64,000 nt of DNA from NCBI GenBank assembly GCA_025057155.1, contig JANWYD010000008.1, positions 1 through 64,000 of the forward strand. The letters run 5' to 3'. The DNA comes from Chloroflexaceae bacterium (GTDB lineage Bacteria; Chloroflexota; Chloroflexia; Chloroflexales; Chloroflexaceae). Numbering within the stretch: the first letter of the stretch is position 1; every line of letters starts with the position of its first letter. Positions 20,462-33,125 of this stretch are shown here, piece by piece. A model generated the notes under the pieces. It had not been told where the DNA came from, did no database searches, and saw only the letters and a program-made list of their open reading frames with translations. Both the position numbers and the translations under genes were made by a program.

Positions 20462-23400
20462 CTAACTACTCTGAGAGTTTTTCGATAACTCCGCCCCCTC
20501 CCCAACCCTCCCCCGCTGGGGGAGGGAGTCCGGCGCCTCCCCCCAACGGGGGGAGGCTGGGAGGGGGGCGGAACTGCTGTGCGAGCAAGGGGCCGCACAC
20601 ACCCGCAAACCCCAGCTGAGGTAGGCGTTGTCAGGACGACTCCTGGACCGTGCATTGCAGCGAACAGTTGTACTATTAGTCCGCCACGACCCGCCTCGCA
20701 GCGGCGCATCGTAATCGCCAGGTGTAAAGTCTTTCACCAACATCCCACTCCCTGCCGGGTAGCCCGCAGAGCTGCTCGCGGTCCACTCCCACACGTTGCC
20801 GGCCAGGTCCAGCGCCCCGCAGGCCGCCGCCCCCGCCGGGCAGCAACCCACCGGCGCGGGCCGGCCCAGGCCGCTGGCGTCGTAGATTGCCAGCTCCGGG
20901 GTCGGCTCCGCCGCGCCCCAGGGGTAGGGGCGGCGCCCGCCCTGCCCGTCCCATGCCGCCGCGGCCTCCCATTCGGCCTCGGTGGGCAGGCGCACCTCGT
21001 AGCCCGCCGGCAGGGCGTCCCCGAGCTGCTCGCTCAGCCAGGCGCAGAAGGCCGCGGCCTCGTACCAGGTCACCCCGATCACCGGCTGGTTGGGGGCATT
21101 ATACCCTGACTCCCCCCACGACCAGGGTTCGGTGCGCTGCAGCGACCGTTTCCACTCCCAGCCCTCCGGCGTCCACCAGCGTTCAGCCTCGGGGCCGTAG
21201 CCCACCGCCACGAACGGTTTGTACTGGGCCACGGTGATGGGGTAGCGAGCGATCCAGAAGGCGGCCAGCGGCACGTCCGCCGCTGCGTCATCGTCCCACC
21301 CGCCGATGCGGTAGGTCCCCGCGGGCAGGTAGCACCAGTAGCCGGCGGGCTGGCCGAAGGTCGCGGTGCGCCGGGCCAGTTCCGCGCGCCATTGTTCCAT
21401 CGTTACGGGGAAGCGCGGGTCGCCCAGGTCGCCGAGGAGTTCGCCGGCGCGCAGCCGCTCGGCGAGGGGGAGCGGCTGGTCGCGGTCGGCCAGCAGGGTG
21501 GCGAGGCCCTGTTTGAGCTCGCGCTGCCAGCGGTCCACCCGGATCTGCGGCCGGGTGCGCAGGTAGGTCCAGTCGCGATCCGCGCCAAGCTCGGCGGCCA
21601 GGATGAGGTCACGGTACCAGCGGGCCGCTGGCTTCGGCGCCCCGCCCTCCTCGCGCTCGATCAGGTCGCCCAGCAGCCGGTCGAGCACCAGCGGCGCGGC
21701 CAGCCCGGCCCCCAGGAAGATCGGCTCGCGCCAGCGATCGTCGTCGCGGTGGCGCATGATGAGCGCCACCGGGTCGTCGGTATTCAGCGCAATCTCGCGC
21801 CCGGCGCAGTGTTCCTGCAATGTCAGGTGGGCGAAGACGAACGAGTCGCGCTCATCGGCCACCAGCAAGCCGCTGCGCTGCTCGAAGTAGTCCAGGCAGT
21901 TCAGGGCGGCGTCGCCCGGCCCGCTGACCCGGGCTTGCTGGAAGAAGTCGATCAGCGCCGTGTAGACGTCGCCGCGCGCCAGGCGCCCGCGCCCGTCAGC
22001 CGAGGTGGCGCGCGCATGGGCCTGGTAGGAGAGCCGGTCGAGGAGCGGGCGAATGTAGCTGCTATCCCACTCCGGCTTGCCGATCGCCTGGCCCAGGCTC
22101 TGGCCGTCGCGCACCAGGTCCCACTGGCCGAGCAGCAGGTCGAGGATGCGCTCGTAGAGCTGGGGCCGGTCACGGGGCAGCTCACCCCGGTTGTAGATCA
22201 CCAGGGCCATCATCGTCAGCAGCAGAGGCGTCTCGGCCATCTGGCGCAACCGGGGGCGGGCCGGGTCCTCGATGGCGGCGATGAGCCGGGCGCTGAGCCC
22301 TTCGGCCTGGGCCTGGTCGATCTGGCCCCTGGCGACCAGTTCGCGGTGCCAGGCCGGCACGAAGTGGCGCATCTGGCCCAGGGTGAAGGGGGCCAGGGTC
22401 TCGACCGGCCAGTTCAGTTCGGCGTGCACCTCTTTGGTGAACGCCCGCACGCGGCAGGTGACCACCGCCGGGCAGGCGGGGTAGCGCCGGGTGATGGCGC
22501 GCACCGCCTGGAGCGTTGTCAGGCGATCGGCGACGCCGGGGGCGCCGGCCAGCGGCGTCTCATCGAGGCCATCGAAGAGCAGCAGCGCCGCCCCGCGCGA
22601 GAGAGCGGCGCTGAGGGCATCGTCCACCTGGTGGGTGCAGCAGGCGTGCAACTCGTCGCGGAGGGCGGCGTAGACGGTCGTATTGCTGTTGCCATCGCGG
22701 GCGATGCGGCCAGCCAGCGCGCGCAGCGGCACGAGGATCGGCAGCAGCGCGCGATCGTCTCCGCCGGCGAGCGGGGGCGCCCGCTCCGGGTCCAGTTCTC
22801 GCCGGGCCAGCGCCCAGGCGAGGTAGCGCAGGAAGGTGGACTTGCCGCTGCCGGGGGCGCCGAGGAGGATCAGGCGCCTATGGCGCCGCAGGGCCTCGAC
22901 CGCAGTCAAGGCGCGCTCGAGGACGATCGCATCGGCGCTTCCGGCGTCGCGCCGGTAGAGGGCCGCATCGGGCAGGGCGTGGTCGGGGTCAAACTCCCGC
23001 TTGAGGGGCCGCCGCGGGTCATCGTTCTGGAAATAGGCGCGCAGTTGGCTGGCCGGGCCGCGGGCGACCTCGACACGATGGGTGGTGGCCAGGGCGACAT
23101 AGACGCGGGGCAACTCGAGGCTCTGGCCGCGACTGAGGCGCTCGTCGAGGCCGCGCAGGGGCAGGTGGACCAGCTTCGCGGCCAGCCCTTCCAGATACCA
23201 GACCAGGCGGCGCCGCTCGTCCTCCTCCGGCGTGCGCCCGTAGATGATCGTGCCCAGGTTAACGCCGACGGCGATGTGGCCCTTCAGCACATCGCGCCCG
23301 GCAATGTCGCCGATCGACACATCACCAAACTGGTTCCCCTCGCCGAAGAAGACCAGGGCCTCAACACGGGCGCGCTGGTCAGAGGACAGGCCGAGTTCAG

Positions 23401-23506
23401 CGGCCCTCTTTTCAAACGCGGCGCGGGCGGTGGCCGCATCGAACTCGGTACACAGGTCGCGCAGGCGACGGATCAGGGCGGCGAGATCGTCGGGATGGGC
23501 CGACAC
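20462..23506 (-). CDS. NACHT STAND NTPase fused to C-terminal FGE-sulfatase (C-type lectin-like) domain
   Basis: 1014 residues. Residues 1-50 are a helical adaptor. Residues 57-90 are a glycine-rich strand repeat (GDVSIGDIAGRDVLKGHI) seen before STAND modules. The NACHT NTPase has Walker A GAPGSGKST at 216-224 and Walker B LLLFDGLDE at 308-316, then winged-helix and helical parts to about 710. Residues 722-971 are a formylglycine-generating-enzyme-like domain (WIARYPITVAQYKPFV, GVTWYEAAAFCAWLSE, RLPTEAEWEAAA, DLAGNVWEWT, RGGSW). The end of this domain (937-970) looks like a retroelement-diversified ligand-binding face. Residues 976-1014 are encoded by a MITE-like repeat. Probable role: sensor of a conflict or self/non-self system; the effector is not evident. 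Confidence 0.9.
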   Translation of the reverse strand: MSAHPDDLAALIRRLRDLCTEFDAATARAAFEKRAAELGLSSDQRARVEALVFFGEGNQFGDVSIGDIAGRDVLKGHIAVGVNLGTIIYGRTPEEDERRRLVWYLEGLAAKLVHLPLRGLDERLSRGQSLELPRVYVALATTHRVEVARGPASQLRAYFQNDDPRRPLKREFDPDHALPDAALYRRDAGSADAIVLERALTAVEALRRHRRLILLGAPGSGKSTFLRYLAWALARRELDPERAPPLAGGDDRALLPILVPLRALAGRIARDGNSNTTVYAALRDELHACCTHQVDDALSAALSRGAALLLFDGLDETPLAGAPGVADRLTTLQAVRAITRRYPACPAVVTCRVRAFTKEVHAELNWPVETLAPFTLGQMRHFVPAWHRELVARGQIDQAQAEGLSARLIAAIEDPARPRLRQMAETPLLLTMMALVIYNRGELPRDRPQLYERILDLLLGQWDLVRDGQSLGQAIGKPEWDSSYIRPLLDRLSYQAHARATSADGRGRLARGDVYTALIDFFQQARVSGPGDAALNCLDYFEQRSGLLVADERDSFVFAHLTLQEHCAGREIALNTDDPVALIMRHRDDDRWREPIFLGAGLAAPLVLDRLLGDLIEREEGGAPKPAARWYRDLILAAELGADRDWTYLRTRPQIRVDRWQRELKQGLATLLADRDQPLPLAERLRAGELLGDLGDPRFPVTMEQWRAELARRTATFGQPAGYWCYLPAGTYRIGGWDDDAAADVPLAAFWIARYPITVAQYKPFVAVGYGPEAERWWTPEGWEWKRSLQRTEPWSWGESGYNAPNQPVIGVTWYEAAAFCAWLSEQLGDALPAGYEVRLPTEAEWEAAAAWDGQGGRRPYPWGAAEPTPELAIYDASGLGRPAPVGCCPAGAAACGALDLAGNVWEWTASSSAGYPAGSGMLVKDFTPGDYDAPLRGGSWRTNSTTVRCNARSRSRPDNAYLSWGLRVCAAPCSHSSSAPLPASPRWGEAPDSLPQRGRVGEGAELSKNSQSS
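20470..20582. repeat. MITE-like element, copy 2 (inside the NACHT-FGE 3' end)
   Basis: Core with two palindromic GC blocks (CCCCCGCTGGGGG and CCCCCCAACGGGGGG types). The left end CTGAGAGTTTTTCG is a worn terminal repeat. It overlaps the last 38 or so codons of the NACHT-FGE gene. Confidence 0.8.
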
Positions 23507-23622: not shown

Positions 23623-23681
23623 GGTGTATTGGCGTCGCAATAAGGCGTGGCGATGCGGCATGGCGCTATGGATGTCTTTTG

Positions 23682-23758
23682 CCCCCCTCCCAGCCTCCCC
23701 CCGCTGGGGGGAGGAGCGCGGTTCCCTTCCCCAGCAGGGGAGGGTCAGGGAGGGGGCA
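23682..23758. repeat. MITE-like element core, copy 3
   Basis: CCTCCCAGCCTCCCCCC, a palindrome, then CCCTTCCCCAGCAGGGG with GGGAGGGGG. Same layout as the other copies but without recognisable terminal repeats. Confidence 0.7.
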
Positions 23759-23866
23759 GGACGACACGGGCCGGAAGCGGGCTCGGCGCCCCGGAACAAC
23801 CCTGGCGTGCGTTTCGCGTATTGGATAGGGGCAGGGGCCTGGGGAAACCTGGTTTCCCCATCCACC

Positions 23867-24811
23867 TCACACCTTCAACCGCGGGTCAAGGGCGTCGCGG
23901 AGGCCGTCGCCGAGGAGGTTGAAGCCCAGGACGGTGAGCATGATCGCCAGGCCGGGGAAGAAGACCAGGTGCGGGGCGGTGAAGACCTGGTTGCGCTCGG
24001 CGCTGAGCATGGAGCCCCACTCGGGGGTGGGGGGCTGCGCGCCCAGGCCGAGGAAGGAGAGCGCCGCGACCTCGATGATCGCCGTGCCGATGCCCAGGGT
24101 GGCCTGCACGATCAGCGGCGAGATGGCGTTGGGCAGAATGTGCCCGAAGAGGATGGCCAGCGGCCCCAGGCCGATGGTACGGGCCGCCAGCACGTACTCC
24201 TCTTCGCGCGCCGAGAGCACGCTGGCGCGGATCACCCGCGCGTAGGCGGGGATGGAGACGATGGCGATGCCCAGCATGGCGTTGAGCAGGCCGGGACCGA
24301 GCACGCTCACGATGGCGATGGCCAGCAGCAAGAAGGGAAAGGCCAGCACCACGTCGAGGACGCGCATGATCACATTGTCTACCCAGCCGCCGACGAAGCC
24401 CGCCACGGCCCCCAGGAGCACGCCGACGGCCACCGAGATTGACACGGTGACGAAGCCGATGAACAGCGACAGCCGCGCGCCGTAGATCACGCGGCTGAAG
24501 AGGTCGCGGAAGTTCCCGTCCACCCCCATGATGTGCTGGGGCTGGTCGGGCGGGCAGCCGAAGAGGTGGATGCACGGCCCGGAGCGTTTCTGAATGCCCT
24601 CTTGCTTGCCCAGCAGGACCTCGGTGGGGTCAAAGGGGGCGATCCAGGGGGCGAAGATGGCGGTGAAGACGAGCACGCCAATGATGGCCATGCCGATGAT
24701 CGCCGAACGCTGGCGGATGAACTGGCGCCATGCTCGGCGCCAGGGACCTTCGGCGGGGCGCATGGGGGTGACCAGGGTCACCGCTGTGGTGGTGGTTGAC
24801 GTGCTGCTCAT
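23867..24811 (-). CDS. Peptide ABC transporter permease, DppC/OppC type
   Basis: 314 residues. An inner-membrane permease of the binding-protein-dependent importer family. Six helices are seen. The N-terminal OppC signature (FIRQRSAIIGMAIIGVLV) is followed by the periplasmic loop and ASVLSAREEEYVLAARTIGL, the EAA loop that contacts the ATPase. The C-terminus LLGDGLRDALDPRLKV is diagnostic for DppC/OppC. ATG 24811 is used; the extra N-terminal sequence of the longer frame is not family-like. Last gene of a binding protein-permease-permease set; no ATPase gene follows. Confidence 0.94.
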   Translation of the reverse strand: MSSTSTTTTAVTLVTPMRPAEGPWRRAWRQFIRQRSAIIGMAIIGVLVFTAIFAPWIAPFDPTEVLLGKQEGIQKRSGPCIHLFGCPPDQPQHIMGVDGNFRDLFSRVIYGARLSLFIGFVTVSISVAVGVLLGAVAGFVGGWVDNVIMRVLDVVLAFPFLLLAIAIVSVLGPGLLNAMLGIAIVSIPAYARVIRASVLSAREEEYVLAARTIGLGPLAILFGHILPNAISPLIVQATLGIGTAIIEVAALSFLGLGAQPPTPEWGSMLSAERNQVFTAPHLVFFPGLAIMLTVLGFNLLGDGLRDALDPRLKV

Positions 24812-24883
24812 AGGCTGTGGTGCGGTCAGGGGCGCAAGGGGTTGCGCCCCTGACCCCGGGACTGTAATAAGGATCATTTCCGG

Positions 24884-24952: not shown

Positions 24953-26029
24953 CTAGTATCTGATCCGCGGATCGAGAAACCCATAGGACAGATCCACCAG
25001 CAAATTGATCATCACATAGCTGAACGCAATCGCCAGGGTAAAGCCCTGAATAATCGGGTAATCGCGGGTGGAGATGGCATCGTAGAGGATGCGGCCCACC
25101 CCGGCGAGGTTGAAGATCGTCTCGGTCAGCACGGCGCCGCTGAAGATCGTGCCCAGTTGCAGGCCGATGATCGTCACCACCGGCAGGAGAGCATTGCGCA
25201 GGGCGTGGCGGATGGTGACCACCACGTCGGCCAGGCCCTTGGCGCGGGCAGTGCGCACGTAGTCGCGGCCGAGGACCTCGAGCATCGAGGAGCGGGTCAT
25301 GCGGGCGATGATGGCCATGGGGATGGTGCCGAGGGCCATGGCCGGCAGGATCAGGTGGCGCAGGGCGTCGCGGAAGACCTCCCACTGGAAGGTGATCAGG
25401 CTGTTGAAGAGGTACATGTTGGCGAGGAACTGCAACACCTGCCCGAAGCCCGATTTGAGATCAACCTCCCACCCCCAGACGACGTAGAAGGGCACGCTGG
25501 TGACGCCAGCGGTCAGGCGTCCCGAGGGCGGCAACTGGAAGGGGGTGTCCTTGAGCAGCAGGGCGAAGATGTAGGCCAGCATCAGCCCCAGCCAGAACAC
25601 GGGCATGGAGACGCCGATGTTGGAGATGACCATGGTCGCCACGTCAATCGCCGAGTTGCGGCGCAGCGCGGCGATGATGCCCAGCGGCACCCCCACGATG
25701 CAGGCCAGCAGCAGGGCGAAGAAGCCCAGCTCCAGGGTAACCGGCAGGCGCTCGGCGATCAACTGGGTGACGGGGCGGTTGAAGCGGATGGAGGTCCCCA
25801 GGTCGCCCTGCAACACGTCGCGGATGTAGATGCCGAACTGCACCGGGATGGGCTTGTCGAGGCCCTTCTCGGCATTGAAGCGGGCGCAGATGGCCTCGGT
25901 GGCCTTCTCGCCGAGCTGGGCGGTGCAGGGGTCGCCGGGGATCAGGCGCACCAGCACGAAGGTGACCAGCAGCACGCCGAAGAGCACGGGCACGGCCACG
26001 ATCAGACGGCGAAGGGTGTAGCGGAGCAT
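24953..26029 (-). CDS. Peptide ABC transporter permease, DppB/OppB type
   Basis: 358 residues. It starts MLRYTLRRLIVAVPVLFGV, the typical DppB N-terminus, followed by FVLVRLIPGDP. The EAA loop is RSSMLEVLGRDYVRTARAKG, and the end VDLSYGFLDPRIRY is the family C-terminus. It forms the heteromeric channel with the downstream DppC-type protein. ATG 26029 is used although the longer frame extends through the MITE-like repeat upstream. No strong ribosome-binding site is visible. Confidence 0.95.
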   Translation of the reverse strand: MLRYTLRRLIVAVPVLFGVLLVTFVLVRLIPGDPCTAQLGEKATEAICARFNAEKGLDKPIPVQFGIYIRDVLQGDLGTSIRFNRPVTQLIAERLPVTLELGFFALLLACIVGVPLGIIAALRRNSAIDVATMVISNIGVSMPVFWLGLMLAYIFALLLKDTPFQLPPSGRLTAGVTSVPFYVVWGWEVDLKSGFGQVLQFLANMYLFNSLITFQWEVFRDALRHLILPAMALGTIPMAIIARMTRSSMLEVLGRDYVRTARAKGLADVVVTIRHALRNALLPVVTIIGLQLGTIFSGAVLTETIFNLAGVGRILYDAISTRDYPIIQGFTLAIAFSYVMINLLVDLSYGFLDPRIRY

Positions 26030-26138
26030 GGTCTTAATTTCGAGGTTAGCGCGTTTGTCGCAGCGTTTAACGCAAAGGCACAAGGAACTGGCGGCGCTGA
26101 TTGCAACGCTTTGAGTCTTTGCGCCATTCGTGGCGTCC

Positions 26139-26215
26139 GGCCCCCTCCCCAACCCTCCCCCGCTGGGGGAGGGTGTCCGGCGCCTCGCTCCAACGGGGGG
26201 AGGCTGGGAGGGGGC
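26139..26215. repeat. MITE-like element core, copy 4
   Basis: CCCCCTCCCCAACCCTCCCC, a palindrome GCTGGGGGAGGG, then CTCCAACGGGGGGAGG. It lies in the 242-bp space between the binding-protein and DppB-type genes. Confidence 0.75.
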
Positions 26216-26271
26216 CGTGCCCTCGCACCTGGCAAGAAGGGGCCCGGGGAAACATGGTTTCCCCAACCTCC

Positions 26272-28062
26272 TTACTCCGCCGGGGCGTTCAGGAAGCCGC
26301 CCCAGAGCGCCGAGAAGTAGGTGTAACTGCCGTCGCGGCCCTTGTGGAGCGGGTTGGCGGCGTCCCACTGCACGGCCCAGGACATGACGACGTCGTTGGC
26401 GTCGAGTTCGGAGCCGTCGTGGAACTTCACGCCCGAGCGGAGCTTGCATGTCCACACGGTCAGGTCGGCGTTGGGGGTGCATTCCTCGGCCAGGCCGGGC
26501 ACCACCTCGGTGCCGCCGATCTCGTAGGAGAGCAGCGCCTCGGTCACCTGCTCGCAGACGCGCAGGGCCTCGCCGTCGGTCTCGTCGGCGCAGTAGATGC
26601 CGGCCGGCTCGGCGTTCTGCATCCAGACAAAGGTGTCACGCCCGCCGGGGTCCATCACGGCGAAGTACTCGTTGCCCAGAGGACTGGCATGAGCGCCCTT
26701 AACGTCAGCCTTGTAGGCCACGCCCGAGCCGCCGTGGGCGATGGGCACCATCGGCACATACTTCTTGATCAGGTTGTTGGCCTCGACGTAGAACGGCTCG
26801 CGCTCGGCGTCGTCGGCCCGCGAGGCGCCCTGCTTCAGCGCCTCGACCAGGTCGGGGAACTTGTCGCCGAACTGCTTCGAGGCCCCGGCGCCGAAGTGGA
26901 AGTCGAGGAAGTTGGTCATATCGGGGTAGTCGGCGCCCCAGCCCAGCAGGTGCAGGCCCTTCAACTCGCCGGCGTCGGCCTTGTCGAGGAAGGTGCCCGA
27001 CTCAATCACGTTGATCGTCACCTTGATGCCGATCTCGGCAAGCTGGGCCTGGATGTCCTCGGCCACGCGCCCCGGCTCGGGCAGGTAGCCGCGCACCACG
27101 TCGCGGTACTCCAGCACGGTCTCGAAGCCGTTGGGGAAGCCGGCTTCGGCGAGCAGTTTCTTGGCCAACTCCGGGTCGTACTTGTACCACTCCTCGCCGA
27201 CGCAGGCATTGGGGATGGCGCAGGGCGTGAAGTGGCTCGCCACCTCGGAGCCGGGCGGGTAGAAGTTGTCAACGATGCGCTGGCGGTCAATGCCCATGGC
27301 GATAGCCTGGCGCACCTTCTCGTTGTCGAACGGCGGGGAGGTATTGTTCATGCCGACGTAGAAGACGTTGAGGGCCTCGCGCTCGATCAGTTGCAGGTTC
27401 GGGTCGGCGGCGACCACCTCGAAGGCGTCGGGGGCGATGTTGTCAATGCCGTCCACAGTGCCCGACTGCAACTCCAGCAGGCGCTGGGCGGCCTCGGCGC
27501 TCCAGCGGAAGATCAGCGTCTCGGTCTTCGCCGGATCGCCCCAGTAGTCGTCGAAACGCTTGAGGGTGATATTATCGCCGCGGGTCCAGCTCTCGACCTG
27601 GTAGGGGCCGGTGCCGATGGGCCGCTCGATCAGCTCGCCGGTCCCGCCGGTGGACTCGAGGTACTCGCTGGGCAGGATGGAGAAGGGGGTAAAGGCGGCC
27701 TTGGCGCGGAAGGCCGGATCGGGCACGCAGAAGGTAAAGCGGACCGTCAGCGGGTCCACCGCGGCGATCTCCTTGAGCAGGCCGGTGTAATCGCCGCCGC
27801 ACTCGACGGCAGCAACGGTCATCAGGCCGTTCTCGGTGGTGTAGACCGCCTGGCTCTCGGCGGCGGGTTCGGTGGGCGCGGCGGTCGCCGCGGGCGCGGT
27901 GGTGGCCGCGGGCGCGGCAGTGGGCGCCGCGGTGGGCGCGGGCGCAGTGGTGGGGGCCTGGGTGGCCGGGGCGCCGCCGCAGGCGGCGATCACCGGGACG
28001 AGCAGGGCCAGGAGCATGGCGACGACAAGCGCCCGTCGTCGCACAGGGGTGTCTGTTTGCAT
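26272..28062 (-). CDS. Peptide ABC transporter substrate-binding lipoprotein, circularly permuted
   Basis: 596 residues. Signal peptide with lipobox VIAAC (Cys28) and an Ala/Thr/Pro linker to about residue 70. The body matches family 5 binding proteins (DppA/OppA) but in rotated order. Residues 95-475 correspond to DppA from VDDNTVQF onward (PLTVRFTFCVPDPAF, PIGTGPYQVESW, FDDYWG, KVRQAIAMGIDRQRIV). Residues 476-596 correspond to the normal N-lobe (VCEQVTEALLSYEIGGTEVV, LRSGVKFHDGSELDANDVV, NPLHKGRDGSYTYF). The ATG at 28062 follows GAAGG by 8 bp; GTG 28071 is an alternative. First gene of the importer operon. Confidence 0.92.
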   Translation of the reverse strand: MQTDTPVRRRALVVAMLLALLVPVIAACGGAPATQAPTTAPAPTAAPTAAPAATTAPAATAAPTEPAAESQAVYTTENGLMTVAAVECGGDYTGLLKEIAAVDPLTVRFTFCVPDPAFRAKAAFTPFSILPSEYLESTGGTGELIERPIGTGPYQVESWTRGDNITLKRFDDYWGDPAKTETLIFRWSAEAAQRLLELQSGTVDGIDNIAPDAFEVVAADPNLQLIEREALNVFYVGMNNTSPPFDNEKVRQAIAMGIDRQRIVDNFYPPGSEVASHFTPCAIPNACVGEEWYKYDPELAKKLLAEAGFPNGFETVLEYRDVVRGYLPEPGRVAEDIQAQLAEIGIKVTINVIESGTFLDKADAGELKGLHLLGWGADYPDMTNFLDFHFGAGASKQFGDKFPDLVEALKQGASRADDAEREPFYVEANNLIKKYVPMVPIAHGGSGVAYKADVKGAHASPLGNEYFAVMDPGGRDTFVWMQNAEPAGIYCADETDGEALRVCEQVTEALLSYEIGGTEVVPGLAEECTPNADLTVWTCKLRSGVKFHDGSELDANDVVMSWAVQWDAANPLHKGRDGSYTYFSALWGGFLNAPAE

Positions 28063-28287
28063 AGGAAGCACCTTCGTTTAGATTGCGGATTGTGGATTGC
28101 CGATTGAGGGCGGTGGCGATGGAACCCGGCCGGACGAGCCGGAGGTCGCGCCGCTGCCCCGACCGAATCAACTGAAACCGCAATGCAAGGCTCCGCCAGG
28201 GAACGGGGGACCGGCGATAGGCATCACCTCCTCGGATGCTCATGAGAATGCGGGAGCGATCACGAGCAGCGCGTGGAAGGCTCACTG

Positions 28288-28425
28288 GTCTGTAAAGTTA
28301 AGTTTCCCGGCCTTTCCGCCCCCCTCCCGGTCTCCCCCCGTTGGGGGAGGCGGTGGGCGCCCTCCCCCAGCGAGGGAGGGTTGGGGAGGGGGTTGGGGAT
28401 TCAGGGAAAAACTTTGTTTACAGAC
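28288..28425. repeat. MITE-like element, copy 5 (most complete)
   Basis: 138 bp. The left end GTCTGTAAAGTTAAGTTTCC pairs with the right end, which reads GTCTGTAAACAAAGTTTTTC on the minus strand. Two inner palindromes are CCCCCCGTTGGGGGAGG and CCCTCCCCCAGCGAGGGAGGG. Non-coding. Confidence 0.88.
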
Positions 28426-33016: not shown

Positions 33017-33125
33017 TCTGTGAACCAAGTTTTTTGGCAACTCCTCCCCCTTCCCAACCCTCGCCCGCTGGGGGAGGGGGTCCGGCTCCTCCCCCCGTTG
33101 GGGGGAGGTTGGGAGGTGGGCGGGG
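33017..33125. repeat. MITE-like element, copy 6 (right end lost)
   Basis: The left end TCTGTGAACCAAGTTTTTTG is followed by the two GC palindromes (CCCGCTGGGGGAGGGGG and CCCCCCGTTGGGGGGAGG). The right terminal repeat cannot be found. It lies upstream of the cinA-like gene. Confidence 0.8.

Follow-up and report, generated by a model that had tools for sequence, protein, structure and literature searches.

Natural circular permutation in an ABC transporter binding protein has been described for TpMglB-2 (Tp0684), a glucose-binding lipoprotein for which the available part of PMC4990184 proposes the name 'Cluster Bc' and whose permuted order is common to a family of relatives. The Discussion of the same paper, as far as it was available, proposes that the permutation may serve membrane tethering. 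In the open-licence PMC literature, TpMglB-2 alone stood out, in the portions of text accessible, as a naturally permuted ABC binding protein; an imelysin-like protein for which circular permutation is mentioned (accessible part of PMC3143127) and permuted ribose-binding halves (accessible part of PMC9815098) were also found there. No naturally permuted solute-binding protein (SBP) of family 5 was among the matches listed for this open-licence literature. The conventional system to be compared is E. coli DppA (1dpp, 1dpe; NF043070), whose R383 and D436 bind the two ends of the dipeptide according to the available text of PMC12136057.

The window, by which we mean the whole stretch of 64,000 nucleotides analysed, harbours an intact ORF on its minus strand (26272-28062; ATG at 28062, 596 aa, stop codon at 26272-26274), with an alternative GTG start at 28071 (599 aa). 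We read its product as a naturally circularly permuted SBP_bac_5 (cluster C) lipoprotein, nearest to DppA and still a two-lobed peptide binder, and give this whole explanation, including the later moves of the termini discussed below, a probability of roughly 0.87. The parts of the gene and the adjoining permease genes are the following:

27979..28062, minus strand, signal peptide ending in the lipobox-like VIAA-C (Cys28) (translation, residue check, motif scan)
27847..27978, minus strand, Ala/Pro/Thr-rich tether, residues 29-72 (translation)
27787..27846, minus strand, new N-terminal leader, residues 73-92, including Cys88 (core position 14) (translation, alignment)
26659..27783, minus strand, residues 94-468, equivalent to mature DppA 122-502 (from the middle part through the C-lobe to the old C-terminus) (phmmer, structural alignment)
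26638..26658, minus strand, joint between the old C-terminus and the old N-terminus, residues 469-475 (VMDPGGR, 7 residues) (phmmer, alignment)
26275..26637, minus strand, residues 476-596, old N-terminal part of the N-lobe and new C-terminus (phmmer, model)
27091..27093, minus strand, Arg324, equivalent to E. coli DppA Arg355 (mature) or Arg383 (precursor), contact to the dipeptide carboxylate (alignment)
26929..26931, minus strand, Asp378, equivalent to E. coli DppA Asp408 (mature) or Asp436 (precursor), contact to the dipeptide amino group (alignment)
24953..26029, minus strand, DppB-like permease, 358 aa, with Glu-Lys at residues 41-42 (sequence search, alignment)
23867..24877, minus strand, DppC-like permease (sequence search)

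The protein shares with E. coli DppA the fold (over 381 residues), the ligand-binding Arg and Asp and the adjoining DppB-like and DppC-like permeases. It differs in its rotated parts, 7-residue joint and lipoprotein tether, in an identity of about 30%, and in missing the cut-off of the DppA equivalog NF043070 (231.6 bits against a curated value of 1005). Like TpMglB-2, it is a tethered ABC binding protein with a natural circular permutation common to a family of relatives; unlike TpMglB-2 (cluster B, sugar-binding, one permuted topology described in the available part of PMC4990184), it belongs to cluster C, and the termini in its superfamily appear to have shifted on three or more occasions, one of them in a gene that was permuted before. 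The sugar-type Peripla_BP domain of a TpMglB-2-like Cluster Bc protein was not found in it. The kind of rearrangement is known from TpMglB-2; new, as far as the open-licence PMC literature goes, are the protein family concerned, the repeated and serial relocation of the termini, and the scar-like joint described below.

SBP_bac_5 (PF00496) was the sole Pfam family detected in the protein at E <= 0.01; its score of 288.8 bits (cut-off 32.4) came from two stretches. In a genome profile search, profile positions 62-366 mapped to C8:26878-27786 and positions 1-53 to C8:26350-26508, both on the minus strand, so that the start of the profile is placed downstream. The phmmer comparison with E. coli DppA (1dpe) paired residues 94-468 with DppA 122-502 (i-E 3e-49) and residues 509-586 with DppA 35-118 (i-E 6e-12); the two matches did not overlap and their order was swapped. 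The protein was confirmed to carry the DppA parts in the order leader, 122-502, 7-residue joint, 35-118. Because homology and fold agree with SBP_bac_5 and the collinear order alone is lost, it is a permuted variant of this family. These results bear out the preliminary description, in which all the parts of a DppA/OppA-family protein were present in rotated order, with the usual N-lobe part at residues 476-596 behind the usual C-terminal region, the original termini joined near residues 470-480, and the signal peptide and linker, also seen in our translation, kept in front.

Judged by motif, the protein is a bacterial lipoprotein, with a signal peptide and a lipobox Cys. The pattern applied to it and its relatives was a filter of our own, based on what we take to be the lipobox motif. 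Cys88 and Cys112 (core positions 14 and 38) were both present in 73 of the 77 rows of the window-type alignment, two of the remaining rows being gapped and two having another residue at core position 14. This alignment comprised the window protein and 76 of the 80 related loci; excluded were L019, which contains a run of N, the short L053 and L075, and L077 with its different order. The Cys pair may staple the new N-terminus of the window-type proteins.

The Arg and Asp of the ligand site and a nearby Tyr were kept in all 77 rows. The DppB-like and DppC-like genes downstream, described earlier as normal-looking permeases and confirmed here, did not reach the equivalog cut-offs; the DppB scoop residues were Glu41-Lys42, compared to Glu41-Arg42 in E. 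coli DppB. No DppD or DppF homologue was detected among the ORFs of at least 150 aa in the 64-kb window, using as queries the ATPases of a second permuted family (see below), which carry the Pfam domains ABC_tran and oligo_HPY, and the ATPase of this importer is presumably supplied from elsewhere. Most likely, the protein performs ordinary capture of dipeptides or short peptides for DppB/DppC: the usual two-lobed fold would be kept, closing on the peptide like a flytrap and handing it over to the permeases. Alternatively, the permuted protein might no longer be chiefly a transporter subunit, acting instead as a ligand sensor or scaffold, as the members fused behind caspase-HEAT-FHA domains and a hydrophobic segment (L188), behind Peripla_BP_6 (L006, L008) or behind SBP_bac_3 (L018, L023, L025, L045) might suggest, together with two loci (L018 and L064) in which no DppB/C/D/F match was found within 4.6 and 4.2 kb downstream, respectively. 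However, at least one DppB/DppC-like gene lay downstream in 74 of the 80 loci (the full B-C-D-F series in 14 of these 74), four of the six loci lacking a permease had less than 750 bases of sequence left downstream, and the ligand residues were invariant in the alignment, which makes a sensor or scaffold unlikely.

The rotated order was not restricted to this genome. Among 80 loci from other genomes, 79 showed the order of the window protein (middle part, C-part, N-part; M-C-N), several of them clipped by contig ends, and one (L077) the order C-N-M. A part-profile order test of 125 ORFs, in which duplicates from overlapping loci were kept, gave 103 M-C-N, 17 N-M-C, one C-N-M (L077) and four partial results. 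When 155 ORFs, duplicates removed, were compared with a profile of 16 conventional proteins, 111 were rotated at the cut of the window protein, 20 at a second cut, and 24 (the 16 profile proteins included) were conventional or single-piece; E. coli DppA, which is outside the 16-protein profile, came out conventional. The search for homologues of the same order in other Chloroflexota, proposed in the preliminary description, returned a full-length permuted match (756-990 bits) in at least 22 of 151 sampled genomes, one of which had an extra permuted match of 465 bits. The next rows reached at most 329 bits and covered the middle and C-part alone; the eight of these that were fetched (L117-L124, 253-329 bits against the permuted profile), the best-scoring unpermuted relatives in our set, are set apart by their conventional N-M-C order. 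The class of Ilumatobacter nonamiensis, which we take to be Acidimicrobiia, had a full-length permuted match (759-912 bits) in at least 19 of 198 genomes, plus one partial match. With 20 further draws around G400, at least five of 21 genomes had a window-type match, and no new form appeared. All of these genome counts are lower bounds, few candidates having been scored per genome in most searches.

The permutation of the window protein is therefore old and inherited, and most likely goes back to a single event at the base of the family in Chloroflexota and Acidimicrobiia. In such an event the short joint would have fused the old termini, the N-lobe would have been opened between the equivalents of DppA 118 and 122 to give the new ends, and the signal peptide, lipobox and tether would have come to lie ahead of the new start; probably the gene was first duplicated in tandem and in frame, and then trimmed.

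Membrane tethering as the cause of the permutation, the idea put forward in the available part of PMC4990184, could be checked in our set and was rejected. Of the 111 window-type proteins, 94 had a lipobox-like motif, as did 16 of the 20 proteins with the second cut and 19 of the 24 conventional ones (the misses include some proteins that start at a contig end and, among the conventional ones, the E. coli control). These frequencies are similar across the groups, so lipoprotein status is not distinctive of the permuted proteins.

A second permuted protein is encoded in the same genome:

G000 C8:185855-187834, plus strand, second permuted SBP_bac_5 lipoprotein (L092, L125, L189), 660 aa, outside the window (profile search)

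This protein begins with the C-part (from just before GDPKVRQA), continues with the N-part and the middle part, and ends at the strand before that loop; its cut lies near position 343/344 of the conventional profile. It heads a DppBCDF-like operon of its own (B-C-D-F). Near-full-length relatives numbered 18 proteins in at least 17 of 201 Chloroflexota genomes, an eighteenth genome giving a partial match to a conventional protein. Phylogenetic trees were built from 33 hand-picked window-type rows (30 of the 77 alignment rows plus L187, L188 and L190), nine of the 18 second-family proteins, the two re-permuted proteins described below and 18 conventional proteins; the careful tree contained five of these 18 and no second-family rows. 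The nine sampled second-family members formed a separate branch, and, going by the sequences, this second family-5 lineage is permuted independently of the window's family. A single clade of all the permuted proteins was rejected (p-AU 2.9e-90; quick tree, long branches). A candidate split-gene intermediate in G166 (L144, L185) was also rejected:

L185:2928-4073 (G166), ORF with the second-family C-part, a short stretch like the end of the middle part, and an unrelated tail

This composition reads as a probable gene remnant.

In the order Thermoflexales, a third arrangement was found:

L077:1851-3602, re-permuted member, order C-N-M (part-profile order test)
L186:1134-2927, re-permuted member, order C-N-M (part-profile order test)

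L077 and its relative L181/L186 (90% identity) come from two genomes, G400 and G404, so that re-permuted genes occur in at least two of the five Thermoflexales genomes searched. Over the C-N part, L077 is 63% identical to the window protein, and it shares 40-65% identity with 38 window-type rows. A re-permuted query gave no full-length match among the matches listed for 400 sampled Chloroflexota genomes, and this form consequently looks rare. On the careful tree, the re-permuted pair was nested within the window-type clade beside L187, a window-type protein that also comes from Thermoflexales (100/97), and permuted and conventional rows were separated at 100/100 (long branches). Forcing the window-type rows together was rejected at p-AU 0.0013, in a test where the clade was chosen after the tree had been seen and branches are long. 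Both cut forms of the window's family share the fused joint of the old termini. The N-M joint of the re-permuted pair reads EVPPATATDTKYEAPNCDYGG; its first part resembles the C-terminal tail of window-type proteins and its last part their leader, and the conventional relatives aligned (four of L117-L124) have a shorter loop where the window type is cut. This scar-like joint appears to retain traces of both old termini of the first permuted form, which is the leftover expected if a permuted gene had been duplicated in frame and then trimmed. On this reading, a window-type gene of Thermoflexales, permuted once before, underwent a second permutation.

The two cut forms might instead have arisen separately from conventional ancestors. 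The re-permuted cut falls at conventional-profile position 346/347, nearly matching that of the independent second family (about 343/344), and this near coincidence indicates that the loop may be a preferred site. Nevertheless, the joint common to both forms, the nested position on the tree and the scar-like stretch argue against separate origins, which we regard as quite unlikely. With serial permutation as the preferred reading, the window's cut, the separately cut second family and the re-permuted pair point to at least three moves of the termini of family-5 binding proteins. It is likely that the ends of these proteins are mobile in Chloroflexota, moving probably by duplication and trimming, with the loop that just precedes the VRQA helix used twice and with one move made in a permuted gene, where a readable scar of the intermediate was left. 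If so, conventional, permuted and re-permuted proteins form a natural series in which the ligand site is unchanged. Since all three forms occur in one superfamily and keep the same key residues, they allow direct tests of how protein ends can be moved, at what cost and to what use. Domain searches that give a single best stretch conceal permuted proteins.

Structure prediction, also proposed in the preliminary description, gave one compact and confident body for core residues 75-596 of the window protein (AlphaFold2, 77-row alignment; pLDDT 95.5, pTM 0.92). Model residues 18-399 superposed on DppA (1dpp_A, 120-507) over 381 residues (rmsd 1.7 Å, Z 31.6; Foldseek, VIA-align 2), which agrees with the cluster C fold of DppA. 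Residues 402-522 of the model were left unaligned by these programs, as expected from a permutation; since the aligners preserve sequence order, this segment was placed by its sequence and by the single-body model, both of which suggest that it fills the place of DppA 1-118. At first glance, a segment behind the normal C-terminal end could also be an extra domain that resembles an N-lobe by chance on an otherwise ordinary SBP, a case for which the preliminary description had named a conventional N-lobe at residues 70-200. However, residues 94-240 make up the fold's middle part, just about 20 residues lie between the tether and the DppA-122 match, with no conventional N-lobe upstream, and the model is a single body, so an extra domain is very improbable. 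An assembly or binning artefact (a rotated or chimaeric contig) can practically be dismissed: most of the 80 locus records are titled MAG, but 79 of them show the rotated order in frame, two records not marked MAG are included (Chloroflexales bacterium ZM16-3, L003; Ilumatobacter nonamiensis YM16-303, L056), and two genomes carry the re-permuted form in copies 90% identical to each other. For the re-permuted protein, the model was poor (pLDDT 63.6, pTM 0.54), its alignment lacking depth over the M part; M fragments were excluded from it, and a version with the fragments, which misaligned them, was set aside.

Several permuted proteins are fused to other modules. In the product of L188:1908-5165, caspase (Peptidase_C14), HEAT and FHA domains precede a permuted SBP of the window type and are separated from it by one strongly hydrophobic segment; this protein might span the membrane as a receptor whose caspase lies in the cytosol. 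The second binding domain ahead of the permuted SBP is Peripla_BP_6 in two loci and SBP_bac_3 in the other four named above. Less certainly, the new N-terminus may have offered a port for the fusion of further binding and signalling modules.

The window contains five copies of a GC-rich repeat, about 96 nt long and palindromic in parts (20476-20571, 23664-23759, 26123-26218, 28301-28396 and 33028-33123), and one copy flanks the SBP gene on each side. Directly downstream of the permease genes, positions 20465-23506 encode a protein with NACHT and FGE-sulfatase domains.
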